49,771 bases of DNA from Cyanobacteria bacterium SW_9_44_58. GTDB lineage: Bacteria > Cyanobacteriota > Cyanobacteriia > Cyanobacteriales > Rubidibacteraceae. Under the pieces are notes generated by a model. The model was not told where the DNA came from. It was given only the letters and a program-made list of their open reading frames with translations, and did no database searches. Shown here in pieces: positions 22,296-41,293 of this stretch. Both the position numbers and the translations under genes were made by a program. The DNA is taken from positions 1 to 49,771 of the forward strand of contig PXPI01000053.1 of NCBI GenBank assembly GCA_003021905.1, written 5' to 3'. Positions within the stretch are counted from its first letter, which is position 1. Every line of letters begins with the position of its first letter.

Positions 22296-23336
22296 ATGGC
22301 ATCATCTAAACAGTCTGTTCGGGAACTGGGCATTAATCCCAACCATTGGTATGCAGTTGCCCGAAGCAATGAAGTTGCGGGGCAGCCTCATGGGGTGACC
22401 CTGTGGAAACAGCCCATTGTTCTCTATCGGCAAAGCAATGGCGAAATTTGCGCCCTAGAAGACCGTTGTCCCCATCGTTTTGTGAAACTGAGTTCCGGTC
22501 AAGTGCAGGGCGACAGCTTAGAATGCGCCTATCATGGCTGGCAATTCAACAGTCAGGGACAATGTGTTTCCATTCCCTATTTAAGTGCCAAGCAAAAGTT
22601 GCCTCCCTGTCAATTGCGCCAGTATCCGGTACAGGAACAAGATGGATTTATTTGGCTATTTTTAGGCGATAGGAAACAAGCCCCAAATGTTCCGCGTTTT
22701 TCTGTGCCCGAATGGGATCATCTCAATTATATTGCCACAGTTTCCATCATTGATACCCAAGCCCATTATTCCTATCTCATTGAAAATTTAATGGATATGT
22801 ATCATGGGCATTTGCATCAAAATTGGCAAGCTTGGACAGATGCCAAGTTAGACAAAATTGAAGAAACAGAAAAACACGTTGACGGCTACTATCAGGCACA
22901 AAGTTATTATAAAATTGATAAAATTTGGTCAATTTCACAACTATTTTTTCCCGCATTAAGACAACTTCATCCTGAACCTTTGACAGTCAGTTATATTTAT
23001 CCGCATTGGGTGTCCACCCTGGGAGATGACTTCAAAATTTATTGTTTATTTTGCCCCATTCATGAAACTGCCACCCGCGCTTATTTAATCCACTTTACCT
23101 CTCTCAATGCCTTTTGGCGACTCCATAAACTTCCCATTTGGTTTCGTCGCGATTTGAAAAATGCCTTATTTGGTTCGGCGCAACACTTATTAGATGGGCT
23201 AGTGCGTCAAGATGTAGCAATGATTGAACAAGAACAACAAGCTTACTTAGAAAATCCCCATCAAAAAGGCTATGAATTTAATCCTGTTTTAGGCAGTGTT
23301 CAGCGTTTAATTCACAGACAAGTTAATCAATCTTGA
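22296..23336 (+). CDS. Rieske non-haem iron oxygenase, possible CruH-like
   Basis: Rieske CPHRFVKLSSGQVQGDSLECAYHGWQF; mononuclear iron-type region NLMDMYHGHLH; 6 bp downstream of the desaturase. Confidence 0.75.
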   Translation: MASSKQSVRELGINPNHWYAVARSNEVAGQPHGVTLWKQPIVLYRQSNGEICALEDRCPHRFVKLSSGQVQGDSLECAYHGWQFNSQGQCVSIPYLSAKQKLPPCQLRQYPVQEQDGFIWLFLGDRKQAPNVPRFSVPEWDHLNYIATVSIIDTQAHYSYLIENLMDMYHGHLHQNWQAWTDAKLDKIEETEKHVDGYYQAQSYYKIDKIWSISQLFFPALRQLHPEPLTVSYIYPHWVSTLGDDFKIYCLFCPIHETATRAYLIHFTSLNAFWRLHKLPIWFRRDLKNALFGSAQHLLDGLVRQDVAMIEQEQQAYLENPHQKGYEFNPVLGSVQRLIHRQVNQS

Positions 23337-23590
23337 ACCTCTCCCACTAAGCTCCTAATGTCGCTATAGTGGGAGATTCCTGCTTCAGACTCTTAACTAG
23401 ATCGATCCGAAGATCAACCCCCGTCAGACCGTCTCCACAAGCATTTTTAAGGTGCGCTTGCGCTCTGCGCGGGAAACCCGCGCTCAGGTCGCACCTTTTA
23501 ATGTCCACGGGCGTTCCGACCGCAGACAATCCTTCAGGTCTGCTTTCCAATGCGCGGGAAACCCGCGCTTGGGTCAGACCTCGATTTCTA
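23337..23590 (-). ncRNA. Candidate omega/reRNA overlapping tnpB 3' end and right end
   Basis: Two nested hairpin modules (23537-23580 and 23449-23497) with identical inner stem GCGCGGGTTTCCCGCGC, a GATC-TTCG-GATC hairpin (23404-23415), then the terminal hairpin 23341-23375. Confidence 0.65.
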
Positions 23591-24705
23591 ATGACTTCAG
23601 CAGCCACCACGTCACGTGGGGCTATGTACTGGCATTCAGGACAATGATGCACTCTTACATTAAGAGTCTTTTTACCTGTATGCGCTCCACACTGACTACA
23701 CTCTTGAGACGTGCCGTCTTTGTTGACTTTGCCAAAGTAAACATCACGCTTCCAACAAACCCATTGAAGGATGTTGACAAACTGACCGAAACCAGCATCA
23801 GCAGCGTGCTTAGACAGCATCCCTCTTTGCCAACTAATGAAGTTGATATCTTCAACAAAGATCATCCCTGCTCCATCGCATAATTGATGGGCTAACTTAA
23901 AGTGCCAGTCTTTACGGGCATCAGAGATGCGTTGATGAACTCTTGCTATTTTACGATTTAGTTTATGGCGATTATTTGACCCTTTCTTTTTATTCTTAAG
24001 CCTTCTTTGTAGCAATTTCAGCTTACGTTGAAGAGATTTTAAGAACCGAGGACGCTTAACCTCTAAACCATCGCTAGTAGCAACAAACTTGTCAAACCCT
24101 AAATCTAAACCTCTAGGGTGCCCATGAGGAAAGGGTTGGGGGACATCTACATCTAACTGAAGAGAGAGCATTACAAAATAACCAGAGGCTTTTCTAATCA
24201 CTCTTGCTTGTTTAATGACAAACCCTTCGGGAATTTCCCTAGACTTTCTGAATTTAACCCATCCTAATTGAGGTAATTTGACTTGATTTCCTTTTACGGT
24301 TTCTTTCCCCAATTGAGGTATAACGTAAGACCTCATTCTATACTTATTCTTAAAACGAGGGAAACCAAACCCTCTAGATTTCATATCAGAAAAAGCCCGA
24401 TCCAAAGTTCTTAAAACCTGTTGGATAACTTGAGCATTAATTGCTTTAAGTCGAGGGTTAGTTTTCTTCGCTTCAGTTAAAGCCTTTGCTTGTCTTTTGT
24501 AACTAGGATAAGGCTCATCAGGAGACATGATGTATTCCTGAACCAAAGAACAAGCATTAACGGGACACTTACGAGAATTAATCCAATCCTTTCTTTCTCT
24601 TAGCGCAAAATTCCAAACGGAACGACAAACATCAAGTGTCTGCTCAATAATGTCGATCTGTTGTTGACTTGGTTCTAGTCGGTACTCGTAAGAAAGTGTC
24701 AGCAT
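23347..24705 (-). CDS. tnpB: TnpB RNA-guided nuclease / OrfB transposase
   Basis: RuvC motifs GLDLGFDKFVATSDG, MIFVEDINFISW, PRDVVAAEVIRNRGL; zinc finger CSQCGAHTGKKTLNVRVHHCPEC. Start assigned to internal Met MLTLSYEYRLEPS. Confidence 0.9.
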   Translation of the reverse strand: MLTLSYEYRLEPSQQQIDIIEQTLDVCRSVWNFALRERKDWINSRKCPVNACSLVQEYIMSPDEPYPSYKRQAKALTEAKKTNPRLKAINAQVIQQVLRTLDRAFSDMKSRGFGFPRFKNKYRMRSYVIPQLGKETVKGNQVKLPQLGWVKFRKSREIPEGFVIKQARVIRKASGYFVMLSLQLDVDVPQPFPHGHPRGLDLGFDKFVATSDGLEVKRPRFLKSLQRKLKLLQRRLKNKKKGSNNRHKLNRKIARVHQRISDARKDWHFKLAHQLCDGAGMIFVEDINFISWQRGMLSKHAADAGFGQFVNILQWVCWKRDVYFGKVNKDGTSQECSQCGAHTGKKTLNVRVHHCPECQYIAPRDVVAAEVIRNRGLTQARVSRALESRPEGLSAVGTPVDIKRCDLSAGFPRRAQAHLKNACGDGLTGVDLRIDLVKSLKQESPTIATLGA

Positions 24706-24817
24706 TGAATTAATCAAGTCACTGAAGTTATTTAAACACAAACTTACACAACCTATTCATCTGTGTAAGGATGTCCTGACGGACTTTGTTTATTGGTCAC
24801 GATTCATGAGGGGCTGT

Positions 24818-40645: not shown

Positions 40646-41293
40646 TTAAAGTTGATAATTGGCTTTAAATTTCTCTCGGGTTAGGGGTTGAGGAATATAA
40701 AGTCCTTCTCCCCCTAAATACTCTAACGGTTCACCTTGGACTTCCAGCCATACGTTGGCTTCCGGATCAAGACTAGTGGCAGTGTAAACAATTTGTCCCA
40801 CGCGACCCATCATGGAAGCACTTCCCCCACCGAAAGCAAATTCTTGGGAAAGGTCAATGTGAATGCCATCTTCTTGGAAAGTGACGCTGCGCAGTTTGGT
40901 GCCTTCGGGAATGGTACTGGTATAGTTAGGTTCCTGAATATTTCCTTCTAACAGGCTTTTCAGGGCTTTTTCCACCGCAACATTCGGTTGCTGCGCTTCC
41001 ATCGCCATGGATGTTGCTGCTAAATCCAACCGATTATCCGTAACTTTCAACCAATAGATTTTTGCTTGTATTTGTTGTGGATTTTTTTTCACAGGATCTT
41101 GTTGATCTTGCGATGGATCTTGTTGATCTTGCGATTTCGGCTGTAGAAATTCGGGAACCCAGGGAGGTGCTTGTTCCCCCCTAGTCGCGGTCCAACCCCA
41201 CCATGCAGCAACGCCGCCTGCAATGATGAAGACACTAGAAACGCCGGCAATTAATCCCGTTGAAAACCGATAACCTTTTTTTCGCTGTTCCAT
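40646..41293 (-). CDS. GerMN-domain protein with N-terminal TM anchor
   Basis: Hydrophobic anchor; Gly/Met-rich and VGQIVYTATSLDPEANVWLEVQGEPL region. Confidence 0.75.
   Translation of the reverse strand: MEQRKKGYRFSTGLIAGVSSVFIIAGGVAAWWGWTATRGEQAPPWVPEFLQPKSQDQQDPSQDQQDPVKKNPQQIQAKIYWLKVTDNRLDLAATSMAMEAQQPNVAVEKALKSLLEGNIQEPNYTSTIPEGTKLRSVTFQEDGIHIDLSQEFAFGGGSASMMGRVGQIVYTATSLDPEANVWLEVQGEPLEYLGGEGLYIPQPLTREKFKANYQL
41094..41135. repeat. 21-bp tandem repeat x2 in the GerMN gene
   Basis: GGATCTTGTTGATCTTGCGAT repeated exactly, encoding SQDQQDP twice. Confidence 0.9.

Follow-up and report, generated by a model that had tools for sequence, protein, structure and literature searches.

The window, that is, the whole stretch of 49,771 nt analysed here, belongs to a Halothece-like cyanobacterium and carries a tnpB gene on its minus strand; the identification of tnpB, part of the original prediction, is borne out by the Pfam domains OrfB_IS605 and Cas12f1-like_TNB and by RuvC and zinc-finger motifs. 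The nearest named relatives of the encoded TnpB come from a Halothece MAG (84-87% identity), followed by other cyanobacteria. No tnpA was evident among the ORFs surrounding tnpB. The right end of the insertion sequence (23333) lies directly against the 3' end of a gene for a Rieske-type oxygenase (22296-23336), whose TGA stop (23334-23336) falls within the IS end. No relative yielded a clean empty site for the IS as a whole; in the only relative that has both genes flanking the IS (G040), they are separated by about 1 kb of other sequence. The features at the 3' end of tnpB are as follows.

23347..24741, minus strand: tnpB ORF, 464 aa, with RuvC and zinc-finger motifs present; beyond about residue 377 its tail overlaps the RNA
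23536..23581, minus strand: M1, a 46-nt palindromic element inserted before the P1 hairpin (covariance model, 73 bits)
23503..23527, minus strand: P1 hairpin GTCTGCGGTCGGAACGCCCGTGGAC, between M1 and M2; also found in homologues without the elements
23450..23496, minus strand: M2, a 47-nt copy of the M1-type element with an imperfect middle stem (46.7 bits), in the linker between P1 and core
23333..23447, minus strand: conserved omegaRNA core, 115 nt, ending in TTCAA, with covarying stems in 34 homologues
23341..23375, minus strand: terminal right-end hairpin (arms 23341-23349 and 23367-23375), carrying the tnpB TAG
23313..23332, minus strand: putative guide segment GATTGATTAACTTGTCTGTG, adjoining the right end and placed by the TTCAA end

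The last RuvC aspartate lies at about residue 377 of 464, which gives a tail of about 87 codons rather than the 75 or so originally estimated; the reading frame stays open across all hairpins, as had been noted, and its TAG (23347-23349) sits within the terminal hairpin. This long open frame is not unusual, since tnpB of this clade normally reads into the core: in 48 of 65 homologues the stop lies at least 51 nt beyond the core start. The presence of an omega/reRNA at this position, also predicted from the window, is supported by an alignment of 34 cyanobacterial right ends, in which a structured, covarying core overlaps the 3' end of tnpB and the right end; the GATC-TTCG-GATC hairpin and the terminal hairpin are both present. 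Both modules lie upstream of this core, and the core boundary coincides with the start of M2. Rfam gave no match, neither for the whole window at the gathering threshold nor for 23300-23650 at E<=1. In the omegaRNA of ISDra2 the scaffold comprises 116 nt, the 5' region of the RNA (-231 to -117) is processed off and not needed, and the C-terminal domain of TnpB is dispensable for cleavage (PMC10097598). The RNA described here resembles it in overlapping the tnpB 3' end and in the length of its core (115 vs. 116 nt); it differs in that inserted palindromes lengthen the leader, outside the portion that ISDra2 requires. Two elements without tnpB, C31 (L007, genome G000, approximately 1484-1830) and C49 (L008, genome G000, 1-180), have kept the full omegaRNA core together with M2; C31 also contains left-end-like sequence within about 350 bp, which makes it a MITE-like derivative and a possible source of guide RNAs in trans.

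The palindrome GCGCGGGAAACCCGCGC occurs exactly at both 23467-23483 and 23552-23568, and the earlier judgement that this is no chance repeat holds: the observed recurrence is far above the expectation from dinucleotide-shuffled windows, which contain on average 0.11 matches with up to three mismatches allowed. Among other exact 17-mers repeated within 200 bp, the window contains only those of a tandem repeat near 41.1 kb, a 21-bp direct repeat (GGATCTTGTTGATCTTGCGAT) at 41094-41135. The predicted outer stems were recovered as well, GGTCTG/CAGACC at 23537-23580 and AAGGTGCG/CGCACCTT at 23449-23497, and RNAfold of 23337-23600 (minus strand) yielded -116.2 kcal/mol (z = -6.6, well below shuffled sequences) with M1 and M2 folded as described. 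The repeat is a real structural module. The outer stems are not unrelated, as had been assumed; AGGTCTG and AGGTGCG are covarying versions of one consensus, AGSTNNG, and since both belong to a single covarying family, they do not mark the pair as a matched duplication for this particular RNA.

Definition of the repeat by the exact 17-mer proved too narrow, since the inner tip is its most variable part, and a structural model was required. The family consensus is AGSTNNGAYC..inner palindrome..GNAAGCNNASCT, a nested palindrome of 46 bp that keeps a constant framework on either side of the inner palindrome (AGSTNNG A(C/T)C ... G(A/C/G)AAGC NNASCT); from the outside inward, an AGSTNNG/CNNASCT stem of 7 bp is followed by an internal loop, a middle stem of 4 bp, an inner stem of 7 bp and a 3-nt loop. 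The inner-stem sequence is freely exchanged among copies, with the tips changing in pairs. Across 18 copies, 98.1% of the cells were paired, and 12/18 pairs had both-sided changes (0/500 shuffles); the corresponding values for a set of 9 copies were 98.1% and 11/18. As a caveat, two-sided changes in a DNA palindrome can stem from one templated event and are by themselves no proof of a role in RNA. Among 50 copies at distinct sites, 46 are exactly 46 nt long. MITEs combine terminal inverted repeats with a fixed target-site duplication; here the ends are inverted, and identical 2-bp flanks were found at 12 of 50 sites (4.2 expected), so that target-site duplication is visible as a statistical excess only. 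The inner palindrome GCGCGGGTTTCCCGCGC also occurs under another outer stem, of the GGGAT..ATATCC type, in several genomes of family f20 (L164, L165, L167-L169, L172, L174, L177); these copies possibly represent a second repeat family that shares the tip.

The two modules do not always occur together. Both are present in the window, L130 and L182; L131 and L180 have M1 only, L051 lacks M1, and L144 lacks both. A search with the tnpB end of the window in its own genome retrieved related pieces carrying one module or the other, an M1-type module in C95 and M2 in the tnpB-less elements C31 and C49. These combinations indicate that M1 and M2 were gained separately. Local duplication of one hairpin within the tnpB of the window, followed by divergence of the outer stems, could account for the 19-nt identity of the two tips, which takes in the flanking T and A positions; yet there are relatives with either module alone, the outer stems of each site exactly match copies elsewhere, and the tip is the exchangeable part of the element, which makes such a duplication very improbable.

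Copies of the element are dispersed well beyond this locus; all copy numbers from the covariance model searches are lower bounds. At least about 28 strong copies were found in five genomes of the same genus. Within the order, 28 of 293 genomes had matches at E<=1e-5, and in one other genus each of five genomes contains at least 18-20 copies. The inner palindrome, too, was found in other genomes, also away from tnpB. About 20 of the 28 strong copies in this genus lie within tnpB or tnpB derivatives, at several differing sites that include the M1 site, the M2 site, other tnpB families and the tnpB interior (L229, L231, L232, L235, L237); this concentration could reflect a role there. Outside tnpB, in-frame copies occur in a DDE transposase (L239, L240), in an ORF with a weak HTH match (L238), in another that lacks a Pfam family (L228) and in an unnamed ORF (L226, L227); a weaker, nested copy is in frame in a DUF5615 gene (L241). 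The element in L241 (G132 C16, approximately 946-1015) bears extra inserted sequence. Sampled copies in the other genus are mostly located outside long ORFs, some within ORFs.

Several comparisons document insertion. The orthologue of the L228 ORF in G040 lacks 45 nt precisely at the element, and the DDE transposase, once the 16 residues of the insert are taken out, can be aligned from end to end with copies in many genomes; in DNA alignments with two of those copies, the gap fell at the element. Elements are nested in elements in L184, L187 and L230. M1 in G132 C66 is identical to M1 of the window over 46/46 nt, within flanking tnpB sequence of about 50% identity. Insertion into an ORF usually preserves the frame, because the net gain of 48 bp (46 plus about 2) amounts to 16 codons, and no stop occurs in the frames seen. 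Within tnpB, 47 of 65 homologues have a spacing of only 56-66 nt from zinc finger to core, so that the module is absent from most of them; in the Halothece group the spacing amounts to 63, 112 (where the core match is shifted by one base), 159 and 207 nt, the larger values corresponding to 63 plus one, two and three times 48. Exceptions are L021 (125 nt) and L050/L132 (158 nt), where the insertions of 62 and 95 nt are not multiples of three; in L021 and L050 the ORF ends early while the core is intact, a pattern that fits a dispensable tail.

These observations also bear on the possibility that the modules are conserved as protein, in other words that the C-tail extension of TnpB is selected for its peptide and the palindromes are a by-product. 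An open frame spans both modules, and in most homologues tnpB likewise reads into the core, as noted above; copies in other genes nevertheless use different frames and the opposite strand, resulting in unrelated peptides, the inner tips vary freely in pairs, and L021 and L050 terminate early. No single peptide is conserved, since more than one frame of the insert is used, and either strand; already contradicted by these differing frames, selection for the peptide is hardly credible.

The paired module had been proposed as a variant omegaRNA scaffold. This proposal found no support: most homologues lack the module, it lies outside the 115-nt core, and its 46-nt unit is dispersed in frame in unrelated genes and also nested within itself; a special scaffold module was rejected in view of both distribution and position. 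M1 and M2 could still constitute a functional omegaRNA module of this clade, involved in 5'-end protection, processing or TnpB binding, with the dispersed copies as escapees. Such a function would agree with the maintenance of the stems by covariation, with the retention of both modules in the window, L130 and L182, with their joint occurrence in L115, a member of another genus, and with the location of most copies of this genus at tnpB. We consider it unlikely, since the module is missing from most homologues that share the core and is positioned outside the latter, copies are found in unrelated genes and, in another genus, at many places other than tnpB, the corresponding 5' region of ISDra2 is dispensable (PMC10097598), and the same linker is elsewhere occupied by unrelated hairpins.

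In other cyanobacteria (L065, L081, L087, L128, L119, L120) the linker between P1 and core is filled by unrelated hairpins of about 45-50 nt, several of which share an apical GGTTTCC or GGAAACC motif. In L115, a Crocosphaera locus with a 56% identical TnpB, both modules are present with the same outer stems as in the window, and the linker holds the element in opposite orientation; the same omegaRNA linker is thus filled by the element in both orientations, in different genera. Conceivably, the palindrome is drawn to tnpB 3' ends, where its hairpins would serve as a variable leader influencing the processing or stability of the omegaRNA, and is possibly moved by hairpin-recognising machinery of the IS200/IS605 type; we regard this as rather doubtful. 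Insertions at both sites are probably tolerated by protein and RNA because they fall in the poorly conserved C-tail of TnpB and in the leader upstream of the 115-nt core; a segment with this double use, as C-tail of the protein and as leader of the RNA, is one where insertions would naturally survive.

The family, its dispersal, its insertion in frame, the empty counterparts, the nesting and the position outside the conserved core are established. M1 and M2 are probably (roughly 0.83) two copies of a small mobile palindrome that has repeatedly invaded the doubly tolerant tnpB C-tail and omegaRNA leader. A non-autonomous palindrome, presumably mobilised in trans by some activity, would have entered the tnpB 3' end twice and at separate times, as M1 before P1 and as M2 in the A-rich linker between P1 and core; the insertions may be near-neutral in the protein tail as well as in the RNA leader. 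Inner tips may have been swapped through palindrome-templated repair or gene conversion, and additional copies would arise through transposition of the host tnpB element, tnpB-less derivatives included.

Among known systems, the Rickettsia palindromic elements (RPE) are dispersed palindromes of about 150 bp that are present in many copies and in frame in unrelated ORFs (PMC10969869). The element described here likewise occurs in frame in unrelated ORFs; unlike RPE, it measures 46 bp, is found in cyanobacteria, is read on either strand and in several frames, and in this genus lies mostly within transposon genes. The small dispersed repeats (SDR) of cyanobacteria, associated with the name of Elhai (2008), are very small mobile repeats with a shared fold and nesting, found in minitransposons and reportedly 21-27 nt long. 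The present element, too, inserts into its own copies, and these share a fold and show compensatory changes; its length of 46 nt sets it apart. SDR are cited in PMC4390886 and PMC3733652. GTAG/CGTC-tagged REPs, short palindromic repeats in many copies, have been reported from cyanobacteria as well (PMC3733652); the present element differs in ending with AGSTNNG/CNNASCT, without a GTAG/CGTC tag, and in residing inside ORFs in this genus. It is probably a small mobile palindromic repeat that acts much as RPE do and resembles SDR, with a size that fits neither. A limited literature search yielded no description of the element or of palindromes inserted in omegaRNAs, which leaves its undescribed status unproven.

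A hairpin that lies within an omegaRNA region is not necessarily part of the guide-RNA structure, and the present case corrects a plausible misreading of this kind. In-frame insertion of palindromes, best known from Rickettsia, also takes place in cyanobacteria and with a much smaller unit; the exchange of tips under a conserved outer stem, the nesting, and the empty counterparts in sequenced relatives open its mode of spread to testing. As regards practical use of cyanobacterial TnpBs, the results suggest that the scaffold can be trimmed to the 115-nt core.
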